In this document: in pieces, positions 582 through 60,330 of the stretch | Numbering within the stretch: position 1 is the first letter of the stretch | Layout of the letters: the number at the start of each line of letters is the position of its first letter | From: Dillenia suffruticosa | Lineage: Eukaryota; Streptophyta; Magnoliopsida; Dilleniales; Dilleniaceae | DNA length: 64,000 bases | Direction of reading: 5' to 3' | Assembly (NCBI GenBank): GCA_033439265.1 | Contig: JAVTVX010000031.1 | Span: 14,545,001 to 14,609,000, forward strand | Translations under genes and position numbers: made by a program | Notes under the pieces: model-generated | Told to the model about the DNA's origin: nothing | The model's input: only the letters and a program-made list of their open reading frames with translations | Database searches by the model: none

Positions 582-2456
582 ACAAGGTTATGCTGTGAAA
601 ACATGATTAAGTCGATTATTATAAGAACATTAGTTTGGTTTGCTGGTTCAAAAAGTGACAGATTTCCATTTCCTCTGTAATGTCTCTAATACTTTGTGAT
701 CTTCCCATGTTGTGACGGACCAAACAAAACTGTCCCAAACTTGTAATACAAAAGTTATTAAATAGGCAAAATCAATGATATTTAATTATATTTGGGAAAA
801 TTGTGAATGAGTTTTATTGAGTTTTAGGAAAAACTCTCAAAGAAATTATATTTTTAATTATTTTTAGAAAAAAATTAATTTTTACTTATAAAATATTTTT
901 ATTATAAATTTTTTACTTTTTTTTAAAAAAGAATTATAAACAAAATAAGATAACATAAATACAAATAAGAGCAAATTCAACTCAGTTGAGGTTTTCAAAT
1001 ATGTGTGCGAAAGCTTATATTGCACCCAAGATATATATAGGGGTTGGAGAGAAACTTCATGAAATTACTATCTTCAACTTAAATATTAAGCATGCATGTG
1101 GAATTAAAACACATTGTGAGACGGTCCCTCTTCGCAAGAAAGAGCACACATAGAAGATTGATTGAGGGAGATATGGCTCCTGCCAATAAAAAAAGTTTTG
1201 ACTTTTTTTTTTTTTGGTACATAGAAAGACTTAAACTTGTAACCTTTAAAGAAAAGTGAGTTGATATTAATTGAGTTATAATTTATTGACAGAAAAGAAT
1301 TTTCAGGACACTTGCGTGCAAAAAGGAATTTTCGGGAAATAGAATATGTTTAATATCATGATTAGGGACAGATTATATCGATTTTTGGATCTCATGTTGT
1401 ACTTTTTTGACCAAGTAATTAGATAACCAAAGTTCAAATCCATAACTAACTAGCAAAGTATGAAGGCTAACATGAAAATTTGATGTTTAAAACTTGAAAT
1501 TTTATCTTATGCATCTACCAACAAGTCATTAAAAGCTATAGAACCATTTTTATCACTCATTCAATAGCCATCACAAGGATTTCTTGGAAGTGGTGGAAGG
1601 ATGACAATTTCAGCTCTAAGTTTAATTTTACTGTTTATCTGGTGAGTTTATTTGTGAAATTTCAATTATGATATTAAAATTATAAATAATTCATACTTCA
1701 TTTTCAAACTATTTTCGGATCATATGGGTACAACATATTAATGGTAAGACCCTCTTGACCAAAACAAGTTTACAAGTATATAGAGGTGGCGTTGGTGTAG
1801 CATCGAAATATATTTGTCATGTGTTGATATAAATAATTATACCCTTTAATTAGAAATGGTATGACAATAATGCAAAGTAAGGATTATTTTTCATACAATA
1901 ATTAAGATTTTTTTATCCTATTATAATTGTCTCAACCAAGTATTAATAGTATAATATTTACTTGAAATACCACAAATTTGACACTAAACAATTTTAATTA
2001 TTATTATTATTATTATTATTTTACATAAACATGTTCGAATTCAAGAACATCATATGAGAGGAGGAAAATGTTGCTCATTGAGCCATTATTAGCTAATTAT
2101 TTATTATTATTATTATTATTATTATTTTTTGATTTGCATCATCGGTATCCGAATTCTATTCGACTAATCTAGTTCAAATATTATGGAGTTCATTTTAAAA
2201 ATTGAAATTCTCAGATCATTTTTCACTATTTCCAAAACTCATACTTAAAATCTTTAACTAAGAAAGCAGAATAATCAATCACTCAAACAAAAAAGAACAT
2301 TCTAAACATTGATGTAAACATGGGCTGAGCAATTACGTCGCCCGACACGCCTAACTACCCTTTTGGATGATTTTGGGCCACCTGTTCTAGACACCAACCT
2401 TGTCAATGACAAGGTTTACAAATAGTTTTTTTTAAGTAGATTATTTGTTACTATTT
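1..2456. repeat. Left part of segmental duplicon A (TOM1 upstream flank)
   Basis: This stretch matches 19803-22080 along almost its whole length with small indels, for example the shared GGAGCAGGTG...GTGAGGTTC block near the start and the shared stretch ending in a diverged GACACCAACCTTGTC motif. It is the 5' flank of a truncated TOM1 copy whose remainder resumes after a 5.3 kb insertion. The left limit lies outside the window. I see no gene here. The block starting with the GC-rich first 170 bases looks repeat-derived, but I cannot assign a family. Confidence 0.85.
531..577. repeat. (GA)n microsatellite, long allele
   Basis: About 23 GA units. The matching site in the second duplicon (about 20366-20391) has roughly half as many units, so the tract changed length after the duplication. 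Confidence 0.95.
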
Positions 2457-5400
2457 TGTAACTCCGAAAAAAAAAAAAAAAAAAAGAGTGAGGAGGTGTT
2501 GCGTTTTAGAGTAAAACGCATAGGACTTTAAGCCCTAATTCTCTCTCTCTCTCTTCGTCTCTCTCTTTCTCTCGCTCTCCGTCCCTTCCTCTCCCGCAGC
2601 CGCGCCCGATCACCGCCGCCTGCACCGCCGCTCGCCACTATCGTCATTGCACCCGGCCGCCGCTGCTCCTTCCTTCCAGTGAGCGCGCCATAGCCACCTC
2701 GCTTTCTTCCCGTGAGTGCTGCCCCACCGCGAGCGCAACTGTAGCTCCTCCGCCGCAGCGCGATCCTCCCCGCACGAGCCCAGCACGCGGTCGTCCGTGA
2801 GCGGCGCCTTCCTCCTCTGCACGAGCGCAAGCGCCCCTGCGCGATCCCTGCATGAGCTCTAGCGCGCGACCCACTGTGTGAGCGCGCCCCAACACGAGCG
2901 TGAGCGTGCGTGCCTCACAGCGCGCAATCCAGCTCACGAGCGGAGCACTAGCTCGTGAGTGCTCCAGCCCACGAGCGCCCTGGCTCGCAAGCGCGAGCCC
3001 TAGCCCGTGAGAGCCCGCAGGCCGCGAAGCCCACTACTGACCCACGAGCCCACTGCGGACCGCGAAGTCCATTGCAGCCAGCAAGTCGGGCTGCGAGCCC
3101 ACGAGCCCACCAGCGGGCCAACCCGCCAACCCACCAGCCCGCAGGCCCACGAGCCTGCGACAGCCCGCGAGTCCATGATCGGTTTTCCCCTTAAAGAGCT
3201 CACCTGCATCTTCACTGCAAGTAACGACTATGATTTGGTTGAATTTTTAAGATTTGGTGTTAGAAATTTAGTTGTTACTAATCGTTCAAATTTGAAAATA
3301 TTATAAGTTTTAGACTAATCCGACGGGCGAATGATAGCTAAATCTGAAATCCAAGAAATTCTAGGTGAGAGAAACGCATTCACTTCAAAATTTGAATAAA
3401 TTTTGTTGATTTTATATTAAATATAAAATCGGAAGATATATATCTATTCAGAAATGTGTTAAATTCGAGAAAAATTAAAGAAAATGAGAAATATTGGAAA
3501 TTTGATCATTGGCAAGCCAAATTATTCGAAATTTAATGAAACGAGAATTTAGATATGATTGTATAAATTAAGGTTATATTAAATTGGAAAGAAAAGTTGA
3601 AAATCTCTTATTAGGGTTTTATTTGATATAAAATTTGATAATTTGATTAGATTTATCTTTTGGGAAACTCGAAAAGTTAATTGGATTGATTTGAAAAATA
3701 AAGAGTGACCACCCTCCCTAAATAGGTGAGTGAGACTCTAATCTTTTATATAAAATAGTAAAACGTGTTTTTTGTCGTGTTTTAGATAAAACATGCTTTT
3801 GATATGCATTGATTTGACGTATGACATTAAAGTTCAAATCTGTTTGATGATTATTGGAGTGTCTTAAATTATGTTTACGTTAACTATGCATTTATGGTTT
3901 GAAATGAAACAAAAAATGTGCCATTACTTGAAAATTGAAAATTTCCTTTTCTACCGTTACATTGATATGCTATTTTGAAATGATTTGATGAAACGTATTG
4001 GTACGCAGATTTGAAATGCTTTGATGAACTATGTGGGTTGGATGCTCACTAGTTATGCAATAATATGATTTACTTGTGGGACGTTGTGCTCTGGGACGTT
4101 GTGCCCTTGTGATACTATGATGATGACATTGATGATTCCGTAACTACGAAGAGCGTTTGTAGAGACACGGGTTGCCCGGATACGCTTCTGCAGGAGGTAT
4201 CCGCAAATGTCATTGATTTTAAAGGTTATAGGTGAGGCCGGTTGAACCCACGTAGGGGGAGGACATGTGTGACGCCACCGTCTACCACCGGACGGGGTCC
4301 TATACACGATGATGAGTTAGCTCTGTAATACCCAATTAAAAAAAAAAAAAAAAAAAAATTAGGGCTTAAAGCCCAATTTTCTCCTCTCTCTCTCCCTCTC
4401 TCTCTTTCCCCCTCTCTTCTCTCTCTCTCCCTCTCTTCTCTCTCTTTTTCTTCTCTCTTCTCCCAATCCCCCGCCGCCGCACCTCTCTCTCCCGCTGCCG
4501 TCCTCCGCCGAGCGCGATCGCTGCACCACCGCGATCGCTGCACCACCGCTAGCGCTGCACCACAGTGAGCGCACCAGCGTGCGCTGCACCACAGCGAGCG
4601 CACCAGCGTGCGCGACAGCGCCAGAGTGCACGGCAGCGCAAGCCCTGCGCGAGCTCAGCACGCGAACCCAGCCTGCGCGTGAGTTAAGCGCGAGCAGCGC
4701 GCGAGCCAGCGCGAGCAGCGCGCGAGCCAGCACGAGCAGCGAGCGACCTGCAGGCCTCTGCACGAGCCCCTGCGCACCTCCAGCACGAGCGCAAGCGCTC
4801 CAGCGTGCGACCCACTGCGCGAGTGCTCGATCCAGCTCGCGAGCGCGACCCTAGTCACTGCGGCCCAGTCCAGCACGCGGCCTAGTCCGGCCCGCAGGCC
4901 CACCAGGCCCGCCAGCCTATCAGCCCACGGCCCGCGACGGCCCGTGACAGTCCGTGAGCCTATGCGAAGGTAAATGACTCTAAGTTTCGATTTTCGCACT
5001 TGGGTTTCGAAATTCTTTAGTATTGGACTTAAATTGTTCGCAATTGTTTCAAATTTGGAAACATTCAGGTTTTACACCAAACCAATGGGCGAACGAAAGC
5101 TAAATTCGAGATCCGAAGAATCCTAGGTGAGAGAAATGAAATCTCTTCAACCCTTGAATAAACTTTGTCAAATTAGGTAGCATTAGTTGATTTGTTTATA
5201 AATTGAGGAATTTAGGGTTCGTACGAAATTAAGAAAAACGATAAACCCTGAAATAGTCAGAAATTGATGAAAATCGTGATGACTTGATTAGGTTGGCTTT
5301 CTTGGTGACTCGATTGAGGGGCGCCTTGTTTTGCGTATTTTGGTGTCATTGGGGAGTGCGCTACCTTCCCCAAAACTGTGAGTGGGATTTATTTCAATGC

Positions 5401-7751
5401 TTTTGTTTAATATGTAAATCCTGTTTTACAACATTTTGATAATGAGCATGATTTGTCGTATGTTGGAAATGTTTTGACTGGTTTTAAAATTGACTTTTGT
5501 GAACCGTTGGAGTGTCCAAAAACTGTATTGAATTATGAAATTATGCATCCATGTGGTTGAAATGTATAATGTGCCATTTTATGCTATATGTTGCATTGGT
5601 TTATGAACCTGATTTCGGCACATTTTGATATGATATTGGTTTTGGCCTTGAGAGCTTTGATATGTATTGTTCCGTAGCTACGAAGGACACCGTGAGAGGC
5701 GCTTTGGTGGCGTCCGGATATGCCTAGGCCTGGGGTATCCCACGAGTTGTCGTGATTTGATTATCTACACGGTACTAGCCAGGTTGAACCCGAAAGGGGG
5801 AGGATTTGGATTTGGATTGGATATCCTCTCCAAGTCTAGCACCTGGACGAGGTTCGTCGCCAACGCTGGGGTAGAGAGCACTTTAAAGAAATTTGCATAT
5901 AACACCCCCGGTGCGCCTGTCATAGGTCGCGGTAGACCTCTGCCAGGACATTTTTGGCTGGCAGCTCTATGATTTTAATGACAGTGCTTTGGATGCATAT
6001 TTGACTTGAAAATGCGTGAAATGATATATTGTTGAAATAAAGAGCATGATGATTTGAAATATGATTTATATACTTATGTTTTGACACTCCAGTTTCACAC
6101 TCTATATTTGACGATTGCATTGACCCACTCACTCACTGAGTATTCTTTCCCGAGTACTCACCCCTCATTTCCCTTTTGTTTCAGAGATAGTATTTGACAA
6201 GGAGTGTCGCTTTTAGGACGCTCAGTTTCTTTGGGAGATCAGGCCTGGACTTGAGGAATTATTATATATTTCCGCTGCAATTTGTATTGGTGATGTATTT
6301 GTATTCTGAGGTCTATAGATGACCATTTTTATAATTCTGGGATGACTGTATAAATATGGACATTTAAATTGTGGAACTCTCATGTCACTGCATGACATTG
6401 CATTGAGGCATTTCTTTTTCGTTGCGTCTGTATTTGGGAATGTGTCATGTCTTAGAATTGTCCTCTAGGATCGCTCGGTGCCTCCTCTAAATCACAGGAG
6501 GGGCGACTGGCGGCTGTCCATGCCTTTGACGGGGGCATGGCAGTAGAGGTCTGTGGTTAGGACTGTGGAGAATTGTTTGTTAGCCTTGCGTTGCCCTGGA
6601 TTGTGCAGTATGATGATCTGATTTGTTGTTGAGGATAATATATGCATTTTGAGGCCGGGATGGCCCCTTTTGGACAGGTAACAGGTTTATTTTAATATGG
6701 GAGACCTCCGATATATGGGGAGGTTCTGTCCGATTTTCTGTAAAAATACAGCCGGCATCCAGGGTAACGGGCGGCTGCTCACGATCCCGGGTCGGGGCGT
6801 GACAAGCTCCAACGAACTCATGGCCAACGTCGAGGTAGAGAGTGATTTTAAAGTCTATGCATAATAAAATCCCCGATGCGCTTGTTCTTGGTCATGATTG
6901 ACCTTTGTCAGAATTATCTTTGACTTGCTCTACTATTATTTAATTTTTAAATGGATGCATACATGCTAATATCATGTGATTGATTTAAATGATTTCAAAT
7001 TGCTAAACATATTATGTTTTGTTGCGAAGTGTAAATTTTTGTTTCAAATGATATTATTTGACACTCCAATGGTTCACCCACACTATTTATACTTCATATT
7101 ATCCCCCTCACTTATTGAGTATCTTCCTATGATACTCACCCATCTCTTTTCCCTCAAACAGGATTATTATTGTATTGGAGCAACGTTTCAGATTTTAGAG
7201 ATTTTGGTAGATTTGAGTAATTCACGACGATGAGATTTAAGTTTAAATTTGAAAGATGAATTTCGTAATTTATTTTCAACCCTGCGAGGTTTTAACATTG
7301 AGTTCCGTAGTTGGCTATGTATTTATTTTGGGATGACTGTATAATTTATATATATTTAGTTGTGAAACTCTCATATTTCATTTGCATTGAGACGATTGTA
7401 CGTATTTGAATGTTATTTGGGAAAATTATTGTATATAAGATAAAAGTTAGGTCCGCTCGATATTGCGGCTGTTCATCCTCTAGTTGGGCATAACAATAGA
7501 GGTCTGTTGCTAGAATTGTTAGAAACTTTATAGTTTTGCGTTATTCTGGATGTAGGCTATAGTATTTGTTGATTTTGGAGAGATCGGGTTGACCATTTGT
7601 TTATTTTACAGGATGAATGTGATATACATGTGAAATTGTACATAGAAAACCCCCGATTTATGGAGAGATTTTATCCGATTTTTCATAAAAAATATAGGCG
7701 GCATCTAGGGGTAACGGGCGGCTGTTCACGATCCCAGTTCGGGGCGTGACA
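2457..7751. mobile_element. Solo LTR (long-LTR retrotransposon), interrupted by a nested solo LTR
   Basis: A fossil LTR, about 2.8 kb once the nested insert and its target repeat are discounted. It begins TGTAACTCC, ends GGGGCGTGACA, and is flanked by the perfect 5-bp target duplication TATTT (2452-2456 and 7752-7756). No internal gag-pol region is present, so it is a solo LTR left by recombination. It contains a C/T-rich tract, a GC-rich GCGAGC-type low-complexity stretch (about 2580-3180) and a distal AT-rich part. It is absent from the corresponding site in duplicon B. It is related along its length to 56336-59034 and more distantly to 4324-6804. A Ty3/Gypsy origin is plausible for the terminal sequence but is not proven without an internal region. 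Transcriptional orientation is unresolved. Confidence 0.92.
4324..6804. mobile_element. Nested solo LTR inside the 2457-7751 LTR
   Basis: A 2.48 kb LTR starting TGTAATACCC and ending GGGGCGTGACA, flanked by the perfect 5-bp target duplication AGCTC (4319-4323 and 6805-6809). The related LTR at 56336-59034 runs through the equivalent point without interruption (GAGTTAG then the CGAACTCATGGCC block), which independently confirms the insertion. No internal coding region is present. It belongs to the same superfamily as its host LTR but is clearly a different subfamily. A possible TATA motif (TATAAATA near 6351) may belong to the LTR promoter. Confidence 0.92.
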
Positions 7752-7756
7752 TATTT

Positions 7757-8842
7757 GATATTTGGCTTTTATCGATTAATTCGGTTTGAATACTATAAAA
7801 TTCTCTATAAAAGAATTAATTTTCTCAAATCCTATTTTTTCTATTTTCATCACTCGAATTCAAAATTTATGATTAATACAATATAACCCTACTAACCACC
7901 GAAGGGGTTTTACAAATTTGTATAATACTGAATTTTGCTCTATATATATTTCCCTTTTTTAGCAAAATTAAGAATAAAGACTTAAGCCTAAATATACCTA
8001 ATTTGCTTACATTCAAAACTATTACATTAGACTATATACTAAATTTGGAAATAATAAAATCTAAGAATTTCAAGCATAAATAAAAGAAAATGTAAGCTCA
8101 GGTTAAACTGATAGTGAAAATTTGTTTTTGTTTTTGGCCCAACTCTATCATGATATTTCTCAAGTGAGATTAATGTATTTAAAATGTTATAATTAAACTA
8201 AATTGATTTATATAAAAATTACAAATATATGATATTTTTATAATATTTTAGACAAAAAATTATTATAAACAAAATAAAAATGAGTTAAACAAATTGAGTT
8301 CAGGCAGGAGAGCCTGTACGGGAAACTATTTTGAAATCAAAAACGGATAACTATCATCTGCAGTTTCCAAGTCCAACAACCCAAATTCTCACACCTCAAC
8401 TTTCGCCCGTCAAACTCTTACCGTGGAAGCTTAGGTGAGAGAAAGAGAGAGAGTGAAACACCCGCCTCTCAGAAGACCGTCTGGTGAGGACTGATTTCTT
8501 GCTATCAAATCTCTCCTCTCGCTCTCTCTCTCTCAAATCAAAATATAACACCCTCTCTTTCAAAAGCCAGCTCAGCTCAGTCACGTATCAGAGTCTCAAA
8601 CTCTCTCTTTCTCTCTGGATTTTGACTTTGTTTATTTGCAGAGCTTGCTACTGTAGGAGAAGCTAAGGTCTGGGAAAACGACGAGAATGCCATTGAACGT
8701 CACCTCGACTACGTCAATGGAAATTACTTCTCTAATTTCAGATTGGTGGAAAAAGATCAATGAATCCTCTACTTGGCAAGATGGCATTCTACTTTCTCTG
8801 TGCTGCTTACGGGCTTGTCTCCTCCGTTGCTCTGGTTTGTTC

Positions 8843-8885
<43 letters not shown>

Positions 8886-9024
8886 GTCTATACATTTGGA
8901 GATGTTTACATTTTGGAAGTGGAATTTGGGTGCAGATTCAATTGATAAGGATTGAATTGAGAGTTCCAGAACATGGATGGACGACGCAGAAGGTTTTTCA
9001 TTTGATGAATTTTATAGTGAATGG
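7757..9024. repeat. Right part of segmental duplicon A, ending at a breakpoint
   Basis: This resumes the match to duplicon B (22110-23202) after the LTR insertion. It includes the TOM1 5' leader with its C/T-rich tracts. About 180 bases (roughly 8120-8300) are present here and absent from copy B. Similarity stops abruptly at 9024, inside TOM1 exon 2. The following sequence (GGCTTCCGCTTTCGAG...) is unrelated to the gene. Confidence 0.88.
8678..9024 (+). pseudogene. Truncated TOM1 copy (exon 1 and part of exon 2)
   Basis: Exon 1 (8678-8834) and the first 89 bases of exon 2 (8936-9024) match the intact TOM1 gene at 22868. The intervening intron is also conserved and carries an expanded (TC)n tract. 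The start codon of the intact copy is ACG here (8678-8680). The GGCATCTTCTAC stretch of the intact copy reads GGCATTCTAC, a 2-nt deletion that shifts the frame. The gene then ends at the duplication breakpoint. Exons 3-10 are missing. It therefore cannot encode a TOM1 protein. A downstream ATG (8687) could open only a short frame. The 5' leader is still well preserved, so transcription from the copied promoter is possible. Confidence 0.93.
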
Positions 9025-11942: not shown

Positions 11943-12371
11943 TCACTTCTCTTCCTATGGTAAGACAAGGTTAGTCCTTACTTTTTACCTCATACTATTT
12001 ACTCAAACAAAACAAATAGTAGTAGTAGTAGTAATAATAACAATAATAACAATAATAATAATAATTTACAATCTACCATCGACATTTAGTAGCTTTTATT
12101 TCAAAATATGGTCTAAATTTTTTTTTTCTTTTCCTAATTAGTTAAATCGTGTTTAGGGACCTTTTAAGAAAAAATTCCTGTCTTGGTTAGAGTTTTCCTG
12201 CAATAATGTTTATTTCATAGCTATTAATTTATTTAGTTATTTACATATATTTATACATTTATATATTTTATATTATATGTATATTAAAATGACTTTCTTT
12301 GGTATTTTTTACATTTATTGAGTAGGTCTTGTTTCACCCATTTAAGTAACTTTTTACCGTAGATTAAAAGT

Positions 12372-13420
12372 ATGTTTGGCATGACTTTTTTTTTCTTATT
12401 TTCTCCTTTTAAAGAAAAGCAAAATTTGATTTCTTTTGAAAAAAAGTTAAACGTTATTTGACATTTTTATTTTTAAAAACTGCTTCATTACTCCTTTTTA
12501 TAAATATTATGTTTTACACAACATTTTTTCTAAATTCTATTTTTAATAAAATTATCAAAAAGTGTGTATATATATAATATAATTTTTTCGTCCTTACTAT
12601 CAATTGATTAAAATCAATACATCTACATTTTAAAAACAAAAAGTATAAATACTAATAACTAAAATAAAAATAAATTAATTATTTTTCTGAGCTATTAAAA
12701 TCAAACATTTATAAATATGAAATCATTTTTATATAACATAAAAAACTAAAAAAATAAAAAATAACATAAGTCATCTATTTATGAACACCCAAATTATACA
12801 AATGGGATAAAAAATATATATAAATATATTTGGAATTTATGAATATATTTGAAATTTATTAAAAAATATTTAAATCCACCCGAGTTATATATTTATGAAC
12901 ATCCAAATCATATAAATGAAATAAAAAAATATTTATGAATATATTTGAAATTTATAAAAAAAAAACACCAAAATCATATATTTATGAACACTTAAATTAT
13001 ATAAATGGAACAAAAAAATATTTATGAACATATTTGAAATTTATAAAAAAAAATATTTAAACCCACCTAAATCATATATTTATGAACACTCAAACCATAT
13101 GAATGGAATAAAAAATATATTTATGAATATATTTGGAATTTATAAAAATATATTTAAATTCCACTTAAGTCATAACATTTATGAACACATTTATGGTATA
13201 GACATATTTGAAATTTCACATTATTCAAGTGAAGATATAAGTAGAACAAAAAAATATATAGTTCTGAAAAAGTTGGAGTATTAAAAAAAATGAGAAGAAA
13301 AATCTCAAGAGTTTCTTCTTTAAAACTACTTTTTCTATTTTTTTCAATAAAAAAATTACTTTTAAGAAAAAATTTTATTTGGTAGGGTTTCTCCTTATAA
13401 AAAGAAGAACGGACACTAAG
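12372..13420 (+). repeat. Dispersed AT-rich repeat, long copy
   Basis: The left end (GTATGTTTGGC then T-rich, CTCCTTTTAAAGAAAAG, and TACTCCTTTTTATAAAT) and the right part (TCTCAAGAGTTTC, CTACTTTTTCTATTTTTTTC, TTTTATTTGG) match the reverse complement of 43863-44501 in the same order. The centre is expanded by a tandem array (12771-13230). The ends of the partner copy carry a short inverted TGTTTGG motif, so a MITE-like DNA element is likely. Target-site duplication and right boundary here are not clear. Confidence 0.55.
12771..13230. repeat. Degenerate ~90-114 bp tandem array
   Basis: Five diverged units, each holding a TTTATGAACA motif (at about 12781, 12895, 12984, 13082 and 13181) followed by ATATAAATG..ATAAAAAA, TATTTGAAATTTAT and AAATCCACC. 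The open frame across it is an artefact of the repetition. It lies inside the dispersed repeat 12372-13420. Confidence 0.85.
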
Positions 13421-19142: not shown

Positions 19143-19802
19143 TTGTGATACGACCCGAAAAAATTCAATGATTTAATTTTTCACGTTTTTGCATGTGTTT
19201 ATACGTAAAATAAATCCATCATTGGTATAAGGGTATATTTAGATTTATTAAAAAAAATTTAGAATTTTTTGGATATAAAATATATAAGATAAAAATTTAC
19301 AATCTGAAACATGAATGCGTTTCGTGAATCCGAAAATACCAGGAGATTACCTATTATCATAGATCATGAATATGATTTTTATTTAATTTTTCGAGCATGT
19401 TTTGACCATTAAATCTCTGGTCGAAGTTTTCGGTCATGATATAGACCATTAGAATTTAGATCAATCGAGATTAATGATGAATTGATTTATAAAATGATAT
19501 AATTATGTTCATCATTTTCTAATTTACATTTTGATGCATTAATGGGTTTTCCAGGCTGCAAAGGGCCATGATAAAGGTAGTTTGATTTGCAAATTTTAGG
19601 GGCTTGAATTCTATAAAAATCGAGTTTATAATGGTTGAAGGAAGTCCTATTTCATATTCCAGGTGAAATCCAAGTTGAACAAGGCCACAAAATGGGTTTT
19701 TCAGTAGTCGGGTCAAGATGACCCGGTTGTAGGCCCGTCGGACAAGGATGAACGGTCCCAGACCCGCTAGCGTGTGGCGTGCACGGCGCTAAAGGCACAT
19801 GA
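19143..19802. repeat. Unclassified repeat-like sequence upstream of duplicon B
   Basis: A block starting TGTGATACGACCCG contains ATGATTTAATTTTTCACG and TTTTTGCATG. A diverged copy of this block recurs inside the duplicon at about 19998-20040 and at about 205-235. The TG start and the direct repetition suggest an old LTR-type element, but I could not define its ends. The 19690-19800 part is GC-rich. Confidence 0.35.
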
Positions 19803-22693
19803 CACCCACGGGAGCAGGTGCGTGAGGTTCACGTGCACTGAGGTGCATGAATGGGATCGGGTGGTCCACGGGATCGGGTGGTCCAAGTCGGTCGTCAGAC
19901 TAGCGTCCCAACCCGAGTGCGCATTAGTGCTCGTGCCAGACACGCTGTGCGTCTAATGTGTGTAGCAGTTTGCTGCCAACATGTGTATGTAGAATAAATT
20001 TCGATGATTTAATTTTTCATATTTTTGCATGCACAAACACGTAGAATAAATTTAACACATGGCATTCATTATTTTTGCTTTTTCAAGACATCATTGATTT
20101 TTTCAGGTGAAGGGAGTGACCAGATTTCTTATCCCTTTTACACATTGAATTTGAGGGAGCCCCTTCAACAAAATCCCAATTTCCTTCATCTTTTCCTTCT
20201 TTTATAGATTAACTAGAAATCATAGGGGTTGTTGTAGAATATCTGTGTCTATATACGAACTGGGGTTCTGATGAGGATTTCATTGAACTTAAATCTTTAA
20301 TTTTTTTTTTTTTGGTACTGAACTTAAATCTTTATTCTTATAATTGCATCTTGGTTTCTTGTTCAGAGAGAGAGAGAGAGAGAGAGAGAGCTTGACAAGG
20401 TTATGCTGTGAAAACATGATTAAGTTGATTATTATTCGATCATTAGTTTGGTTTGCTGGTCCAAAAAGTGACAGATTTCCATTTCCTCTATAACGTCTCT
20501 AATACTTTGTGATCTTCCCTTGTTGGGACGGACCAAACAAAACTGTCCCAAACTTGTAATGAAATCAATCATATTTAATTATATTTGGGAAAATTGTGAA
20601 TGAGTTTTATTGAGTTTAGGAAAAACTCTCAAAGAAATTATATTTTTAATTATTTTTAGAAAAAATTAATTTTTACTTATAAAATTTTTTACTTGTTTTT
20701 TTTAAAAAAAAATATAAATAAAATAAAGACAAATAAGAGCAAATTCAACTCAGTTGAGGTTTTCAAATGTGTGCGAAAGATTATACTGCACCGAAGATAT
20801 ATATGGTGGTTGGAGAGAAACTTCATAAAATTACTATCTTCAACTTAAATATTAAGCATGCATGTGGAATTAAACACATTGTCAGGCGGTCACTCTCCGC
20901 AAGAAAGAGCACACATCGAAGATTGATTGACAGAGATATGGCGCCCGCCATTAGAAAAAGTTTTGACTTATGTTTTTTCTTTTTTTTTTTTTTTTTTGGG
21001 TACATAGAAAGATTTGAAGTTGAAACCTTTAAGGGATATGGATCGATACTAATTGAATTATAATTTATTGACAGAAAAGAATTTTGAAGAGCTTGCATGC
21101 AAAAAGAATTTCCGAGAAATAGAATTGTTTAACATCATGAGAAGGGATAGATTATATCTATATTTGGATCTCATGTTGAACCTTTTGACTAAGTAATTAG
21201 ATAACCAAAGTTCAAATCCATAACTAAATAGCAAAGTATAAAGGCCAACATGAAAATTTGACGTTGATAACTTGTAATTTCATCCTATGCATCTACCAAC
21301 AAGTCTTGAAAGCTATAGAACCATTTTTATTCACTCATTCAATAGCCATCACAAGGATTTCTTGGAAGTGGTGGAAGGATGACAATTTCAGCTCTAAGTT
21401 TAATTTCACTGTTTATGTGGTGAGTTTATTTGTGAAATTTCAATTATGATATTAAAATTATAAATAATTCATACTTCATTTTCAAACTATTTTCGGATCA
21501 TATGGGTACAACATATTAATGGTAAGACCCTCTTGACCAAAACAAGTTTAGAAGTATATAGAGGTGGCGTTGGTGTAGCATTGAAATATATTTGTCATGT
21601 GTTGATATAAATAATTATACCCTCTAATTAGAAATAGTATGAAAATAATGCAATGTATTATTTTTTATACAATAATTAAGAATTTTTTTATCCTATCATT
21701 ATTGTCTCAACCAAGTATTAATAGTATAACATTTATCTGCAAAGAGTGATTTTTAAATACTACAAATTTGACACTAAACAACCCTAATTTTATTATTATT
21801 TTTTAACATAAACATATTTGAATTCTTGATCATTCAGGAGAATGACGCTAATTGAGCCATTATTAGTTGATTATTTCACCAAAGGAGAACATTATAAACA
21901 TTGATGTAAATATGGGCCGAGCAATCCGCGTTGCCCGACACGCCCACCTACCCTTTTGGATGATTTTGGGCCATCTGTTCTGGACACCAACCTTGTCGAT
22001 AACAAGGTTTTTCCCGTACCAAAGAAAAAAACAAGGTTTTTTTTTTTTTTTTTTTTACAAGGATTTATAACGAGGTTTTACAAATATATATATATTATGT
22101 GGGTTACCTGTGATATTTGGATTTCATCGATTTATCTGATTTAAATACTATGAAGTTATCCATAGTAAAGGAAGTTGGATCTCTCAAATCTTATTTTTCT
22201 ATTCTTATTATTTGAATTTAAAATTTATGATTAATAAAATATAATGCTCTAATCACGGAAGGGTTTTATAAATTTATATAAGAATGAATCTCGTGATATA
22301 TGTTTCCTGTTTTTTAGCAAAATTCAGAATAAATACTTAAGCCTAAATATACCTAATTTGCTTACATTCAAAATATTAAGTTAGACTATATACTAAATTG
22401 GAAATAATGAAATTTAAGAATTTCAAGCATAAATAAAAGAAGAAGTAAGCTCCGGTTAAACTGATAATGAAAATAGCTTGGATGAAAGTGAGAGCCTGTT
22501 CGGGAAACCATGTTGAAATCAAAAACGGATAACTATCACCTGCATTTTCCAAGTCCAACTACCCAAATTCTCATACCTCAACCTTCGCCCCTCAAACTCT
22601 TACCGTGGAAGCTTAGGTGAGAGAGAGAGAGAGAGAGTGAAACACCCGCCTCTCAGAAGACCGTCTGGTGAGGACTGAACTCTCTCTATCAAA

Positions 22694-22730
<37 letters not shown>

Positions 22731-23202
22731 AAATATGACACCCTCTCTTTCAAAGGGCAGCTCAGCTCAGTCATGTATCAGAGTCTCAAACTCTCTATTT
22801 CTCTCTGGATTTTGACTTTGTTTATTTGCAGAGCTTGCTTCTGTAGGAGAAGCTAAGCTCTGGGAAAATGACGAGAATGCCATTGAACGTCACCTCGACT
22901 ACATCAATGGAAATTACTTCTCTAATTTCAGATTGGTGGAAAAAGATCAATGAATCCTCTACTTGGCAAGATGGCATCTTCTACTTTCTCTGTGCTGCTT
23001 ACGGGCTTGTCTCCTCCGTTGCTCTGGTTTGTTCCTACTCTCTCTCTCTCTCTCTCTCTCTATGTCTATACATTTGGAGATGTTTATATTTTGGAAGTGG
23101 AATTTGGGTGCAGATTCAATTGATAAGGATTGAATTGAGAGTTCCAGAATATGGATGGACGACGCAGAAGGTTTTTCATTTGATGAATTTTATAGTGAAT
23201 GG
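19803..23202. repeat. Segmental duplicon B (contains the intact TOM1 5' region)
   Basis: This is the full-length counterpart of 1-2456 plus 7757-9024. It lacks the LTR insertion and the ~180-bp extra segment of copy A. It has a short (GA)n tract near 20366-20391 and a T-rich insertion near 20300. It reads without interruption into the complete TOM1 gene, so it represents the ancestral arrangement for the gene. Confidence 0.88.
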
Positions 23203-26200
23203 AGTGCGTGCTGTTGTCTTTGGCTTTCACAGTCAAGTCTTCAACTTGACCCCCAAAGTGAGTGACTTTCCCACGATGCGTTGCCATTTTGTTTACCAAA
23301 AATGGGAGTTTGCTTTATGGATTAATCTAGATTTGTATGATCTAGAGTTTCTATATTCGAGTGTTTTTCATGCTATTTATTCTATCCCATTTGAGAAAGA
23401 TCAAAATTAATAAACTTAGTATTAGAGGTTGGTTTTCTATAGCAAGAAAGTTTGACATTGCTGGGATGGTGTAGTTATAGGGAAGGAATTTGTTGTGAAC
23501 TTGCTACTAAAGCAAAGCCTAGGAACTCCTTAGTGCATAACTACATAAAAGATGAACGAACTTCAATGAACTTACAGTTCATAGGTGGGTTAAGAAATAT
23601 TACCTTAACACAAAAGTGCACCGCATTCCTTTCCATGGAATTCTGGATGTGATCTTGAAAGGCTTGTGCTATTAGCTTTATGATTAGATTTTTTACCTTA
23701 CTATGTGCAAAAATAGGTGCAGATATAGTTTGAAACATTATATTGTGGAACATATATCTAAGTAATTATATTGTAGCAAGAAAATTAGACTTTGCAGAAT
23801 GCAACATATTGTCCAAAATATCAGGACAGATCATCCATGATGTTCAACTAACATGTTCTACATGACAAATTGGAACTGGATTTCATGAGAATAGAATCAA
23901 TTGTGCAGTTAGAAGGCATCATAGACCTATAAGTTTGCATTGATATGAGGCTGGTGAATCTTGAAACAGGTGCTGATTCTAATATTATTGGGTCTTCCTG
24001 GGCTTCTTTTCTTCTCTACATACACACTCCTTGTTCTATTTTGGGCTGAGATCTATCATCAGGCAAGTACAGGTGCTTCTTTTTTCTTTTTGGCATATAT
24101 ATTCTTGTCTCGGGTGCAACACTGATTAGCTAACTATTTGACTCCCTAACCTCATTAATGGACAGGCAAGAAGTCTACCTACCGACAAACTCAGGATTGT
24201 TTATCTTTCAGTTAATGTTGGACTTTATCTTATCCAGGTTTGGTCCATCTTTCACCGTCATGATTTTTTTAAATTCCATCATGATTATCTTAAATTCCAG
24301 TTTGAATATTTAATCTCTATAGATCACGCTTCTTTATAACTTAGTGTTTACTAGCAGCAGTTGAAATTCTTGTCAAATTTGCTAAATTATTAGTGACATT
24401 TGTTTCAGTATCTTTATTAGTCCATCATGACAGCAGTAACTGTGCCCCGGATTGAGCAATGTTTTCTTTATAATTTGTTATTTTCAATTTACAAAAGTTA
24501 AATTATATAGCATGATGGTTTGCACCATGAAATGGGTGGGCAATGCAATATATGATGAGAGGCAGAACCCCTGTAGGAAAAAGGCAATGAAAATACGTTA
24601 CGAAAACTTTGGGCACCTTGACAATATATGATGAAGCTTACCCAAGAGTTGTTGGTATCAGATTGGCATCTGGTTATACCTTTGGATGGATGACAGCAGC
24701 ATTGTAGAATTCATTGGAAAGATATTCGTTGCAGGTTAGACCTTGATGCCAGTGAAATGATTTGAAATTCATCTTCTGCACACCGTGTCATTTTGTTCAC
24801 CATGCATCAGTTCATATGCTTGACAAAGCATTTTAATGTTATTCTTTTCTAATTTTCAGTGTATTCAATTGTTGCTTCATTGGGATTCTTACTCTATGGA
24901 GGAAGGTGTGTTTAGAAGAGAACTTTTGTTTTGTATAGTCCATAATTACTTCAATTTCATAACTCTGCTTGCTCTGCAGGTTCTAATCTAACTGATTTTG
25001 AATAAACTTGTTGGCTGCAGGTTATTTTTCATGCTAAGACGCTTCCCCATCGAATCTAAAGGAAGAAGAAAAAAGCTCCGTGAGGTTTGTGCTTTCCATA
25101 TCTGCTTGCCCTCATGGATGCAAATTTTTAGTCCACTTTATGGCCATTCTGCAATAAAATTACATGTATCAGCAACTCTAAATCAAGAACTTACATCTGA
25201 AACTCATTGGCTGCCTTTAGAACAGCTTTATTTTGGGAATCATAGAGATCACTTATTTATTTAGTTTCATGCATTGCATGTTGTGCTATGTATATAGTGT
25301 ATCATGAAAGTTGCATGCAATGTATGAGCATGAAAACCAGCCGTTATATTCAGATTATGCGACTGGATTCTTTCTTTGGTAGTTCTATTGATCTTAATTG
25401 GATTCATACGTTAGAATATTTTTCTAGTTTTCTCTGGTCCAATCCAAATTGAACTCTTAGAGAAGCCTAACAGTATTCTTTTTTTAATTAAGAAACTAAA
25501 TTGGACCCCTTGTTTAGGTTTTGTATTTGCTTCTTCATTAACTCTGTAGTTGTATTTAGTACATATCTACTCAAAGCTACCCAAAAAAATTGCCACTCCA
25601 TTTGGCTGGAGAGTCTCAGTTGCTTAAATACAGCAGAACATGTTGCAGTGGTCAATGTATGGCCAACTGCACATGTTATTTGCAAAATTTTATGAGTGGA
25701 GTGTCTCATCAATCAGCTGCCCCAACCCCTGGCCTTCTTAAATACCTCATCATTAACTCAGGAAAATTATGCTGAAGAATCATATATGAGAGTTCCATGA
25801 TCTGATTAGGTCAACACTAGTCCTAAATTATATTAATTTTCTATTTATACAAAAGCCTTTCTTAATATCTACTCCATTTTGATGTACATGTCAAGATTAT
25901 GATGAACCACTCTTGTTATTGATAACATCTCTGAAACGGTATAGAGTGGTAACTGAACACAAGTTCAAGTTCATTCATTTGAACTTTTTTTCTTTTTATC
26001 ATTGGCATTAATTCTTTCCCGGTGGTGAGAGGGGCCAAAAGAGAGAAAAAAAAAGCCAAGGGCAGACCCTCAAACAGCCCCTCCATTTTTAATACTAAAT
26101 GAGACAGAGCTTGGCCTCCTAGAAAGAAGCCGACTTCTAAAAACACAACATTGAAGTTTGACAAAAGAAAATAAGAAAACAAGACTGGCAGAAAAAAGAA

Positions 26201-42859: not shown

Positions 42860-45800
42860 GATTCTTCTCCTTTAATTTAATTTAAATAAAATCTTAATCA
42901 TAGAATAAAAAAATTTAATAATTTATATTTTAAAATTATTTTTAATTAAGAAATTTTAACCCTTTATATTAATATTGCTCAAGATTAATTTGAAAATGAT
43001 ATGTACATGACGTTAGTTTCATATTTTCATGATTTTGTCTTACTCATTAATCAGTAATATTTAAACTAATTTTGAAATAGGGATTAATTATAATTTTAAT
43101 TGCAAAATTATGATTTCATCTTGAATTTGGATAATTTTTTAAAGAAATTAAAAATTTATATTAGAGAAAAATATGAATGTATTTATAATTATAATTTTAG
43201 GAAATAAGATTATAATTTTAAACAAGTCAAAAATATTTGGGATTAAAAGTTTTAGAGTTGAGGAGAGAGCGCAGGGAAAAGCAAAAACCAAGAGCTCTAG
43301 CCCTAGTCATTTTGTAATAAATCTGAATACAACTATATATATATATATATATATAAGAATATGTTTGGAAATCAGATCCATATATCTCACTTAAAAAATA
43401 AAAAGTAAAAAACACAAACCAACTCGACCCAGATTGATCGGTTCAAGGACCAAGTTATACCATTTGATAAATACTTGATGTCATCTTTCTTTCATTGTAT
43501 ATTTTTTAGGATGAAAATGACAATTGTTATCTGATTTCATTTTTATTCAAATAAAATAATATCTTCTTAAATCGTTATTTCAAAAAAAAAATATAAGATA
43601 AGATAAGAAAAAAACAAAGAGGTGAATAGGCATAAACCTTCTTAATGTGACCAAATATTTCTAAATATATGAAAACTAATTTTTTTTTTCCTTGGCAATG
43701 AGAAGTGAGTAGAGTTAAAATTGAAAACTTTAGCTCATATTATAAGTTAAAACCGCTAAAATAACTATTTAGTATAAATTTTTTCTTGGAATTGAATCAT
43801 ATCCATTTCATCACTGAATAGGTTATCACATTATTGATGAGAAGTCTTCTTGAAATCTAAAATACTTGTTTGGTAGTTTTTTTTTTTTTTTATCAATTTC
43901 TCTTTTCCTTATAAGGAAAAATTTTATTAAATAAAATTTTTTTCTTTTTAAAAATAGTTTTTTATAAAAAAAATAGAAAAAGTAATTTTAAATAAAAACC
44001 TCTTGAGATAAGTTTCTTTTTCTCCTTTTTTATTTTTTTATATTCTCATTTAAATAATATAAAATTTCAAATATATCTGTCTATCACAGTCAACTCTCGT
44101 CTCTTATAGATTTGGGCTCTTCCTTTTTCCAAAGTAGAAACCATATCTTATCTTTCATCTTTTCTTCTTTAGGTTTTCTCTCTCTCTCTTCTAATTATCC
44201 CACACTTGCAAACATATGACCTAATTTTGATAATATATATAGATATATGAATTTTAATTAATCGATGATGAAGAGAAAAAATCATATTTTATGTATATAT
44301 CTTTTATGATAATTTTATTAATAAAATTTATAAAAAAAAAGTTTTATCAAACGGTTTATTTATAAAAAGGAGTATAGAAACAGTTTTTTTGAAAAAAAAA
44401 TATTAAGCAACTTCAAATTTAATTTCAAAGGAATTAATTTTTATTTTTCCTTAAAAGGAGAAGATAAGGAGAGGGAAAAAAAATAACTTTGCCAAACATA
44501 CTTTAAATATGTTCAAAATTTGAAAATTTTACCCAAAATTTTAGAGCAAATCCAAATTTCCATTTAAAATTTTAATAAATATATAAATATATGTTGAACA
44601 AATAATATTTAGTCAAAAATTAACATGCAAAAATATTCCAGGAACATAAGAAAACATATATTATTATAACTAATATGAAGGCCAATATAAATAAATAAGA
44701 ATAGCTATCCAAAGATTTAATGAAGAAAATCACACTAACTAGTGTTGGTTGATTGATTGCGTCTTCTTTCCAATGAGTTTCGTTGTTAATTAACGATAGA
44801 AATATTCCTTTTATCATATATTTTGCAACAAATAGCGACGATAATTTTAGTCATGGATAATCTCTAAGTTTTTTTTTTTTTTTTTGAGAAGTGGATGCCT
44901 TGGATAAGTTACTTCATTTTATTTTTCTCTCTCAAAAAAGTCATGATTGTTATTTTCTTTCACAAATATTCAATAAGATTACAAGGCTGAGAATCGGATC
45001 AAAAAGAGTAATGAGCATAATCGAATATTGTAGCACTAAGGTCAACCTAAAATTATGAGTAAAAAACCTACTAAAACACATATATATTTATACCATCATT
45101 CATTGACGCAGTTAGTCAAGGGAGTTGCGTCTCGTCTTCATGCCTAAATTCAAGTTAGTATGGGAACGAGAAAAAACCAATATTGAGAGACCTCCCACAA
45201 AGCAGACTTTATAACGGATGGTTCAAATTTAATCGAGATAAAATTTTAGATACTAGGCGGTAACGAAACTAAAGTACCAAAATATATATAAGAAAAAATG
45301 TATTTGAGATAAAAATTAAATAAAAAGGTATTTAATTTTTTTTTTTTAAAGTTATTAAGGAAACTAGAATATGATGAACATAGTGACGGTAGGATTATCT
45401 TCGATAACCTTTTAGACCGGTGAAAAAGTTCCAAAGGTTATGTTTGGTTAGCATTCAAATATTTGTCGACACATTTTTATTTTTGAAAAAAATTAGGGAT
45501 AGGTTTTTTTATTAAACACATTATAATTTTTTGGGGGAGGAATATTATTTTAGGTTATATTTTTTATGTTTGGTATATAATTATCCATATTGTTGACTTC
45601 ACTTAACAGAATAAAATCACTTATCATATAAAGAAACTTAACAGAATAAAATCACTTATCATATAAAGAAGATAATTATGTAAGGCTATATACGATATAA
45701 AATAAAATATTAGGATTTTGAGACTTTGAAAGCCAGGACTTATTAGTTTATTTGAATGTGTTTACGTGAAACTAGGCTTTAAAAGGGCAAATAAGTCTGG

Positions 45801-49681: not shown

Positions 49682-49686
49682 CTTCT

Positions 49687-51198
49687 TGATAGAACTTAAA
49701 TGTGTGTAATATTTGTGATTGATTTTGTATTATTTTTGAATAAATATTACACTAATATTTATGTTTTGTAATATTTGATTTAGGAGAAAACTTATTATGA
49801 GAAAAGAATAAAAATAAGTAAAATTGGAGCAATTATGCAAAAATGAAAAATTGGATAGCAATACTCTTTCATTAACACGTGGACATGCAGATTTCAAGAG
49901 ACAAGTAAGAGATTTTGAAGATTTACTATAGTAAAAATTTCCTTTCTCAATTGCACATTCAAGAGAAAATTAGAACGGAATCGAAAATATTGAAAATTTT
50001 GAAAAATTTTATTTCATTCCTAATATTTAGGAAAATGAATTTTTAAAAATATAAATCTCTTACGATATTATCTTTTAGGAAAGTTACTTTTTATTTTATT
50101 TTTATTTAGTAGTAATCTAGGGTTACACCCCTATATATATATAGAAGTGTTTCATATTATTGGGAGACAACTTTTGTATAGTGTGCAGTCCCAAAAGGGC
50201 TGCAGCCGGCAGCACATGGAGGAGATCCACATATCATTTGTCTCGACTTGGAGAGGCACATAATGGTGGAAGAAGGAAGCAACCAAGAAGCACCATGTAT
50301 CCCCAACTTTTTCCTTTAATTTTTATTTATTTAATGAGTTTTCTTTTTACATATTTTGTTTTTAATTTATTTTTCTGGTTGAAAAGTTATTATAATCTTG
50401 ATTTTCAATAATTGTAAAATCTAATTGGGCATATTAATTCAACATATTGTAGTTATTTATTTAATTCATGTATTTCATGGATTATGATTTTCTAGAATTT
50501 ATTGAATTGTGGTCAATATTTAACATATCTAGAATAATCTATAATTAATTAAAACGGTAAATCCGTAATTATTTGTTGGTTTTAATAAAGTGGTAATTGA
50601 CATTCGTGTCATAGAAATAACATTCGTGTCATGGGAATGATATTCGAGTCATGGGAATGACATTCGTGTCATGGGATTAAATGATCTAATTTAAATGAAC
50701 CCGATGTGTGTTTGTTAATTACAATTGAATCTCTCTAAATCTTAATATTGTTGAGACCTTCAATCCTAAAACTTCTCTAGGGTTGACTTTCGATTAGAAA
50801 AATAATTAATGAGCTTCTCTTAATTATTGACGAAATAAAGAGAGATTAGTCGTTGAGCATTTGTCGACGACTTTAACCAATTTATTTATGGTTGTTGAAA
50901 TCTTTAGATAGGTCGATAATCAATCGAATGAAATCAAAGTGGATATAATTCCTTTGACTAGATTTTATTCTTATTGATATTTTCTTTTTTAGTAAGTATT
51001 ATTTATTTGTCTTGTTTTAATTGATTTTGTTGATTTTTTTTATTAGTTTAGTTAAACTCAAAAACTCATATTTTTGTTTTATTTTTGTTTTTTTTAAAAG
51101 AAATAAATCCGTCATTTATTGTGAATTCGACACTACTCACCCTAAACTTCTCTATAGTAAAGTAGGTATTTTATTTTTTGTTATTTGACGACACACCA
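49687..51198. mobile_element. Candidate solo LTR splitting the C/T-rich minisatellite
   Basis: A 1.5 kb AT-rich block with TG...CA termini (TGATAGAACTT at the left, TTTGACGACACACCA at the right) and a near-perfect 5-bp target duplication (CTTCT and CTCCT). The right part (GAATTCGACACTACTCACCC, then AAAGTAGGTATTTTATTTTT) resembles the end of plant Ty3/Gypsy LTRs of the Athila/Tat kind. It contains four 20-bp tandem units (GACATTCGTGTCATGGGAAT, 50599-50680). No internal region is present. It is a fossil; its old age is suggested by the mismatched target repeat. Confidence 0.6.
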
Positions 51199-54610: not shown

Positions 54611-56278
54611 CACTACAAAAAAAACAAACTTTTAGCCACAAATTTAGCGAAGAAAATTTAATAAAAATTCATCGCTAAAAATGTTAGTGATGAAAAATTT
54701 TTCGTTGCTAATAATGTATCGCAAAAATTTAGCGACAAAAATTAGAAATTCGTCGCTAAATCGTTAATTTAGCGACAAAAAATTATTCGTCGCTAAATTT
54801 AGCGACGGATAATTTTTCATTGCCAAATTCATTACAAATTTAGCGATAAAAAATTATCTGTCGCTAATTTAGGGATGAAAAAAATTCGTCGCTAAATTAG
54901 CGACGGATATAAATTCGTCGCTAAATTAGCAATGAAAAAAAAATACACTCCCTCCTGAACCCGAGCCCACCCGCCCGAGCCAGCATCCGCCCTCCTGCCC
55001 GCCCGAGCCAGTGCCCACACGCCCTCCCTCACTTAATTCGTGAAAAATCCCTCAGCTTTGCTTCCACTATGGTTCGAACCCCTGCGTTTCTGTAAACTTT
55101 TAAGATTCTATGACAACCAAACTAAATGTTAGTATCTGTTATAAGTTTTTTTTTTTTACTTATTATTTTTTCTTCACATTTTTCTAATAATAATCAAATA
55201 ATATAAAATAACAATTTATTATAAAATAATAAAATATTTGTTTAAAATAAAATAATAAAAGATATAAAAAAAATAATACTATTTTTTAAAAAGATAAAAT
55301 AAAAATAAAATATAACATATTAATTAAAAATAATAAATATGATAATTTTTTTAAATAAAAAATAATAAATATATATTAATATTTTATTTTATTTTATTAT
55401 ATTTCAAATTTAGCGACAAATTCTGAAATTTATCGCAAAATTTGGCGAATTAAGAATTTGTCACCGAATTCGTCCTAAATTAGCGACAAATTTCAAATTC
55501 GTCGCTAATTTTGAAATGAATTATGAATTCGTCGCTGAATTTTTTGTAAATTAGTGACGAATTCGAAATTCGTTGCTAAATTAATTTATTATTTAATAAT
55601 ATATATATTAATATTTTATTTTAATTAATTATTTTCAAATTTAGCGACGAATTCCAAATTCATCACTAATTTTGCGACAAATTAGAATTCGTCACTGAAT
55701 TCGTCACAAAATTAGCGACGAATTTGTAGCGACGAATTAGGAATTCGTCACTAATTTTGTGACAAATTCTAAATTGGTCGCTGAATTCGTCACAAAATTA
55801 GCGACGAAATCCAAAATTCGTCGCTAAATTAATTTATTATTTAATAAATATATATTAATATTTTATTTTATTTAATTTTATCAAATTTAGCGACGAATTT
55901 CGAAATTCGTAACTAATTTTGCGATCAATTGAATTCGTCGCTGAATTTGTCACAAAATTAGTGACGAATTCCGAAATTTGTCGCTAAATTAATTTATTAT
56001 TTAATAAATATATATTAATATTTTATTTTATTAAATTATTTTTCAAATTTAGCGATAAATTCCGAAATTCGTCGCTAAATTTGTGACAAATTCAAATTCG
56101 TCGCAAAATTATCTACGAATTTCCAATCATCGCTAAATTAGCTACGACTATTTTTTCATCGCAAATTTCATTACAAATAGCGACGAAAAAAGTTTTCGTC
56201 GCTAAATTTATCGCAAAATAGCAACAAAAAAAAATTTGTTGCTAAATTTCATCGCAAAAATCGTGTTTTTTTGTGGTG
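54611..56278. mobile_element. Non-autonomous CACTA (En/Spm-type) element
   Basis: A 1,668-bp element beginning CACTACAAAAAAAAC and ending GTGTTTTTTTGTGGTG, an imperfect terminal inverted repeat with the CACTA signature. It is flanked by the 3-bp target duplication GAA (54608-54610 and 56279-56281), as expected for CACTA elements. The interior is mostly alternating inverted AATTTAGCGACGAA / TTCGTCGCTAAATT motifs, likely subterminal transposase-binding repeats spread through the whole element, around an AT-rich core (55140-55420). It encodes no transposase. A GGTTCGAACCCC word at 55071 resembles a tRNA B box but no tRNA fold is present. Confidence 0.92.
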
Positions 56279-56335
56279 GAAAATATTTTCATCCATGTGT
56301 GTTGTAGCTAATGTCCAAATAATCTAATGATCACA

Positions 56336-56350
56336 TGTAACACCATAAAA

Positions 56351-56417
<67 letters not shown>

Positions 56418-59034: not shown

Positions 59035-59039
59035 TCACA

Positions 59040-60330
59040 ACACCGCAAGCAAGTACTCTATCTCTCCCTTAAGAATAGCTAATCAATCATAGATATTCAT
59101 GCATTTAAATTCAACTTTTAAGGGACGATGATGTGCTACCTTTAGCAATCATCTCTAGGAATATATATTACGTGACTCCCATATACTGTAAATTGTCATA
59201 TTTTTAACAAAAGTGGTATCTTAAAAGGACACAATATTTTATCATAACTAAAACTTTACAATAGTCTTTCACTACTTACACATTTATTTGTACCTTATAC
59301 CTACATAATGTGTAGGAAGTGAATGACTATAGTAAAGTTTTATTTCAGAAATATAGTAGATGGTGATCTTTGATAGATATTCACGTAGAAATGCCATGAA
59401 AAGTACACATATTCAAATGTTTTTTCTCCAAAATCTTGGAGAGCACCCTCGGCTCCACCCCTGTTCGGATGAATGTGACCTATTTCACTCTTGTATGAGC
59501 TTCAACCCTTGGCTTTAAATCACTCGGTATTTAAAGCATCCTATTAAACACATATGATCCGAGTGGACATGTATACAGTCTCATATTTCATATATTTTTA
59601 TTAAGAGGAGCACGTTTGATCTATTAAAGTTGAGACTTCTAGTAACCACAGGTGAAGAGAGGGGCTTGCCTCCTAAAATTTTGAGAAAAAGAAGAATTAA
59701 TAAGTTTTTGTCACACTTTAGAAAATACCATTTAAAGTTTTTGAAATGCTGCAAAATTTCTTAAAAATATCACTAAAATCCTGTAAAATGCTATTTGTCC
59801 CCACTGTCCCTACCCCTATGCATATGGCATTTCGCCCGCCTAGTATAAATTTCTCGCTTTGCCAATGATGTAAAAAACTTAACTATCAAGTTTGATGCTT
59901 GCCCAGAAGGCAAATAATAGCGGAGTCTGACAGTGCTCAAAGCCTACATATGGTCTCTTTGAACCTTAAGGAACGAAGTTCTTTATATCTTCATAGCCTG
60001 TTGTGTTACAATCCTTTTCACCATGCTAATTCCGGAGACAAATCAACAACTGTTCCAATGTTACCTCACACTCGCAACAGTGTCTTCAGAGAGGGTTGGT
60101 TAATTTTGATGGTGCTGAAAGAGGACGTGCAGCAATTGGTGAGGAGCTAAGGGATTTGTAGGCGAGGAATATGGTGCATATTCTCCCAGTCAATTGGAAT
60201 TTCGAAATCTAACAGGAGCTGTGGTTTTGGGAGATCAAAAAGGTTTTAGACCTTTCCAATGTTCTGTAAATCTCACAACCTTCCAGTTGAGAGCGACTCA
60301 AAGATAAAAAGGGCCTTCAAATATGTGCTT
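59040..60330. other. No gene recognised
   Basis: AT-rich sequence followed by a more balanced stretch (59890-60330) that may include further decayed P450 sequence on the minus strand, but I could not align it to the family. Confidence 0.4.

Follow-up and report, generated by a model that had tools for sequence, protein, structure and literature searches.

The window analysed here, a stretch of 64,000 nucleotides from Dillenia suffruticosa, contains at 2457-7751 a solo LTR that is nested within another solo LTR. Both derive from insertions of Ty3/gypsy elements, each has its own exact TSD and lacks an interior, and the nest is found only in copy A of a duplicated segment, copy B being without the insertion. 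The structure is confirmed as real and well ordered, with coordinates that are correct to the base. It is probable that the segment was duplicated, that the outer element then inserted and collapsed, and that the inner element inserted and collapsed in turn. The reading of nested solo LTRs in the initial annotation is supported in nearly every point.

Structure of the Nested LTRs

The features of the nest, and of a third LTR in the same window, are:

2452-2456: left TSD of the outer LTR, TATTT
2457-4323, + strand: first part of the outer solo LTR, 1867 bp, ending in AGCTC (4319-4323), which is the left TSD of the inner LTR
4324-6804, + strand: inner solo LTR, 2481 bp, with TG...CA ends, of a young chromovirus family
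6805-6809: right TSD of the inner LTR, AGCTC
6810-7751, + strand: second part of the outer solo LTR, 942 bp
7752-7756: right TSD of the outer LTR, TATTT
56336-59034, + strand: third solo LTR, 2699 bp, of the same broad family as the outer LTR
56331-56335 and 59035-59039: TSD of the third LTR, TCACA

All three LTRs start with TGTAA and end with GTGACA, and an exact 5-bp repeat is found outside each of them. Given the base composition of the window, the chance of an exact 5-bp match is about 0.0015 for one element and 3.7e-9 for the three LTRs together. The TATTT repeats around the outer LTR and the AGCTC repeats around the inner one had both been placed exactly to the base in the initial annotation. 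The repeat finder picked up the structure only in pieces.

Once the inner LTR and one AGCTC are removed, the outer LTR is 2809 bp long and is identical to the third LTR at 2000 of 2536 aligned sites (78.9%; K2P 0.253, 39 indels). The alignment of the two outer halves with the third LTR, which had been proposed together with a count of the substitutions, crosses the junction of the inner insertion in register, at about 58102 in the third LTR. The inner LTR does interrupt the outer one where the third is continuous, and a failure of the LTRs to align across the junctions was looked for and not found. Identity is uneven along the alignment, being 50-73% in the first four steps of 200 columns and 72-91% in the later twelve, ten of which exceed 82%.

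The inner LTR is only 59.2% identical to the outer LTR (2398 aligned sites) and 57.2% to the third (2244 aligned sites), and it is for this reason assigned to another family than these two. The stretches it has in common with them include the LTR ends, and judged from such comparisons the two families are separate ones of a single lineage. The earlier description of the inner LTR as related to the outer one is thus correct as far as the lineage goes, but at this identity it is a separate family. A single family comprising both was set aside at 59% identity.

Loss of the Interiors

The outer, the inner and the third LTR are all complete LTRs with TG...CA ends and matching TSDs, as used to define solo LTRs. 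Neither a PBS tag (at most 2 mismatches) nor a PPT tag (at most 3 mismatches) was found on either strand in 2400-7800 or 56000-59400, and the flanks of the outer LTR align to duplicon B, not to internal element sequence. Two-LTR relatives are found in the genome: at least 12 pairs for the inner LTR, one degraded pair (L036) for the outer, with more pairs among the matches scored, and for the third several matches in pairs 6.7-7.6 kb apart. It is well supported by these sequence features that the outer and the inner element each became solo. Their separate, matching TSDs and their membership of different families call for two collapses, and from these features it follows that the interiors were lost independently, as claimed earlier. 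At this site neither insertion was met with in its complete form. Loss by intra-element recombination would preserve the TSDs (PMC2672092), and recombination between the LTRs would be the route by which the interiors were lost.

The Duplicated Segment and the TOM1-like Gene

The duplication comprises the following parts:

1-2417, + strand: duplicon A, left arm, which extends a further 455 bp past the left window edge
7756-9024, + strand: duplicon A, right arm; at its end lies the beginning of a TOM1-like gene, which lacks 2 bp by comparison with copy B
19358-23202, + strand: duplicon B, without an LTR insertion at the matching site around 22.1 kb
22847-23407: TOM1-like open frame in duplicon B

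A self-comparison of the window, listing matches of at least 100 bases at E 1e-10, shows four matching pieces that pair 1-2417 and 7756-9024 with 19802-22010 and 22111-23202. The duplication reaches 19358 in B, which in A corresponds to a point 455 bp beyond the left window edge. No LTR match within duplicon B was listed at these thresholds, and when the flanks are aligned with one another duplicon B is without an insertion at the site matching the outer LTR. Opposite the TATTT of A it reads CTGT; as there is no exact TATTT here, the pre-insertion site is matched via its surroundings. Remnants of the insertion in duplicon B were looked for both in the alignment and in the self-comparison and none were found, in agreement with the proposal that the outer element inserted in copy A only. 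Because duplicon B lacks it, the outer insertion is placed after the duplication. An insertion before the duplication was set aside, copy B having no LTR match at the thresholds above.

K2P between the duplicons is 0.133 in the left arm (2190 sites), 0.192 in the part of the right arm adjoining the LTR (374 sites), and 0.040 in the gene-start part (703 sites). Expressed as identity, the gene-start part (8308-9024 against 22490-23202) is 96% and the adjoining 7757-8307 83%. Constraint, gene conversion and uneven mutation are alternative explanations for the uneven identity across the right arm.

The Pfam domain THH1/TOM1/TOM3 is found in B (4.8e-33), and as a fragment in A (1.5e-19). The domain confirms the naming of a TOM1 region, but the gene in copy A lacks 2 bp that B has, and its match to B ends near 9024, a limit that applies to matches of listing size, exons of less than 100 bases further right falling below it. 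As copy A is a fragment and frameshifted relative to copy B, we do not expect the insertions to have affected a functional gene. An effect on a working TOM1 gene was set aside on the same two features of copy A.

Two further repeats were noted. Just left of the duplication, 1151-2536 of L038 and 49683-51116 of the window are 71-75% identical in reverse orientation, and 12363-13408 and 43901-44508 form an inverted pair with 74-76% identity.

Genomic Relatives of the Inner LTR

The genome (596 Mb) was searched with the last 205 bases of the inner LTR, and 40 matches out of 3078 first-look candidates were scored, the counts given being lower bounds. These 40, which include the inner LTR itself, have 99-100% identity to the query. 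Twenty-four of them form 12 same-strand pairs 6.6-8.1 kb apart, so the genome holds at least 12 pairs. All 12 were retrieved, three of them whole, two nearly whole, and seven mainly as interiors. A PBS tag, which we take to be of the initiator-Met type in the complete relatives, is found downstream of the 5' LTR in 12 of the 12 pairs, and the PPT tag or its end lies directly before the 3' LTR in ten (L029 and L033 are outside this count).

Six of the 16 unpaired matches among those scored are solo LTRs with exact TSDs, namely the inner LTR and L012 (ATAAC), L017 (GATTT), L023 (CGAGA), L024 (GAGTA), and L025 (ATGTC). In eight others (L014, L015, L016, L018, L019, L020, L021, and L026) the two flanks do not match, one being GTTGG or GAAAA, the five bases next to the LTR in complete copies; because of these flanks the eight probably belong to larger elements. 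L013 and L022 are in neither class.

The interior of L027 contains gag, and L030 contains protease, RT, RNase H, integrase, and SH3_Tf2-1 in the Ty3/gypsy order, all by Pfam, the integrase core of L030 scoring below the cutoff (29.1 vs 32.6). A zinc knuckle is found just below the cutoff in interiors of the inner family. Chromo matches are found in L027 (E 3.9e-5), L011 (3.7e-4), and L034 (2e-4) at the expected protein end, the end of pol, with scores of 20.8-23.9 bits that lie below the curated Pfam cutoff of 25.1, while none was reported by Pfam at E 0.001 in the third piece of L030. The genome search for full-length elements with the same LTRs, suggested earlier as a way of naming the family, has in this way led to two-LTR copies that point to Ty3/gypsy chromoviruses, and the inner LTR family is read as such from its domain content. 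We assume that it most likely belongs to the Tekay/Del clade, judging from the long LTRs and the integrase wording. A study that also gives the clade names reported chromodomains for 94% of its chromoviruses and for none of the remaining groups of LTR retrotransposons (PMC6317226).

Genomic Relatives of the Outer and the Third LTR

For the outer LTR 40 matches were scored of 6374 first-look candidates, and among these the best other match is 90% over 552 bases. The one pair retrieved, L036, is a degraded two-LTR pair of the outer family with a PBS tag and the same PPT tag. Its LTR ends differ at 71 of 579 sites, and Pfam finds pieces of gag, RNase H, and integrase; RT was not found in the four frames scanned. 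L037, the top-ranked relative of the outer LTR among the scored matches, is 81.6-82.0% identical over 2613-2672 sites. No LTR start can be recognised in it, and the first 600 bases do not contain a repeat of its 3' flank.

The search with the third LTR gave 5651 first-look candidates, and the best other match among those listed covers 555 bases at 93% identity. An inverted and tandem repeat array rich in TTAGCGACGAATT-like units immediately adjoins the third LTR on its left, at 54761-56259.

Age and Decay

The nearest two-LTR copies of the inner LTR are L009, L010, and L011, and it differs from their six LTRs at 16-27 of about 2480 sites. When only the four LTRs of L010 and L011 are considered, the differences are 16-19 in 2479-2480 sites (99.2-99.4% identity). 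Within each copy the two LTRs differ from one another at 18 of 2506 sites (L009), 1 of 2482 (L010), and 2 of 2516 (L011). The identity of the inner LTR is 99.0% to L012 and 98.9% to L014, and 88.6-92.6% to the nine other LTRs compared (L016 to L028). Being this close to L010 and L011, in which the two LTRs of a pair differ at one or two sites, the inner LTR is judged to be young.

Private changes are found in the inner LTR at 13 of 2439 sites on which seven close copies are in accord (six or more of them having a letter; the 3' LTR of L009 was left out), in the outer LTR at 106 of 1606 sites where the other three agree, and in the third LTR at 153 of 1653 sites, an uneven comparison in that the outer LTR is judged against three distant relatives and the inner against seven close ones. 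Of the 106 changes in the outer LTR, 78 are C>T or G>A, as is expected where a copy is methylated and silent; of those in the third, 52 are of this type. An assumed substitution rate of 1.3e-8 per site and year, which is not this plant's own, would give the inner LTR an age of very roughly 0.4 million years from its private changes. For the outer LTR the private-change figure is an upper bound on the change since insertion, since part of it may predate the insertion.

A Possible Non-autonomous Subfamily

L009, L010, and L011 have 4131-bp interiors that are 99.6-99.9% identical to that of L011, and they look like a recently copied, non-autonomous subfamily. Among the frames listed, which were those of L011 only, its interior has no forward open frame of more than 154 amino acids. 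L030-L032 have open frames of 493 and 1148 amino acids and have the LTR end, the PBS tag, and the PPT tag in common with the inner family; in the aligned pieces, identity between their interiors and the L011 interior is only 67-80%. We tentatively suggest, as a possibility that falls a little short of even chances, that the inner LTR stems from a polymerase-less, non-autonomous chromovirus subfamily, copied very recently by a partner, whose copies collapse quickly to solo LTRs. If so, the genome would hold an active pair of parasite and parasite of the parasite, side by side with fast removal.

Order of Events

The history that we consider probable begins with the duplication of a segment that included the first part of a TOM1-like gene. 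A chromovirus of the Ty3/gypsy superfamily, most likely from the Tekay/Del clade, then inserted into copy A and duplicated TATTT, after which recombination of its two LTRs of 2.8 kb would have removed the interior. At a much later time a chromovirus of the second, recently active family inserted into the remaining LTR and duplicated AGCTC, and recombination between its two 2.5-kb LTRs would have left 4324-6804.

The nesting itself places the inner insertion after the outer one, and the order of duplication, outer insertion, and inner insertion given in the initial annotation stands. Its further statement, that each element was reduced to solo form after its own insertion, goes beyond the evidence if it is taken to mean that the outer element was already solo when the inner one arrived, although that is the likelier course. 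The present sequence keeps no record of whether the outer collapse or the inner insertion came first. The outer element may still have been complete when the inner one inserted into one of its LTRs, and may have collapsed only later by a crossover on the side that retained the inner element; the final structure would be identical, and the long LTR stretches on either side of the inner one (1867 and 942 bp) leave room for such a crossover. This is nevertheless unlikely, because the outer LTR looks much older and is more decayed than the inner (106/1606 vs 13/2439 private changes, some of those in the outer LTR perhaps predating its insertion), so that the inner element probably arrived after the larger share of the outer one's residence in the genome had gone by. 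The outer element was likely already solo by then.

An assembly artefact joining separate LTR copies is conceivable given how numerous these LTRs are (3078, 6374, and 5651 first-look candidates for the inner, outer, and third LTR). It would however have to produce two different exact TSDs in their correct places and an outer LTR whose two parts stay in register with the third copy on either side of the gap, and we regard it as very improbable. Slightly less credible still is that both LTRs inserted as single-LTR DNA, with no collapse of complete elements. Beyond the absent interiors nothing was found in favour of this, and it sits poorly with the two-LTR copies that have the inner LTR end in common (at least 12 pairs among the 40 scored matches) and with the usual meaning of the term solo LTR (PMC2672092), namely a product of intra-element recombination that preserves the TSDs. 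The early collapse of the outer element, followed by insertion and collapse of the inner one, is accordingly the account preferred here.

Comparison with Known Systems

The events are of an ordinary kind and a known type in plant genomes. The locus is a clean example of element turnover, with duplication, insertion, collapse, second insertion, and second collapse at one place. As a local history, and for testing annotation programs, it is of use, but it changes no general view. A search of the open literature with few terms found neither this locus nor a solo LTR inside a solo LTR, which is weak evidence of absence.

The LTRs resemble solo LTRs of Tekay/Del elements in their TG...CA ends, 5-bp TSD, and length of about 2.5-2.8 kb, and their complete relatives have a PBS and, below the cutoff, chromodomain matches at the end of pol. 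No difference is seen beyond family-level sequence, the clade name itself coming from the long LTRs and the integrase wording. Dasheng/RIRE2 and BARE2 are non-autonomous LTR retrotransposon subfamilies mobilised in trans. L009-L011 are similar to such subfamilies in their near-identical interiors, with no long forward frame listed in L011. The difference lies on the side of the helper: L030-L032, with their longer frames, reach only 67-80% identity to the L011 interior in the aligned pieces. Nested elements and solo LTRs have been treated in 15 plant species (PMC7251063). The present locus is like the nested plant LTR retrotransposons described in having a younger element inside an older one, which gives the order of events, and unlike them in that both levels have collapsed to solo LTRs.
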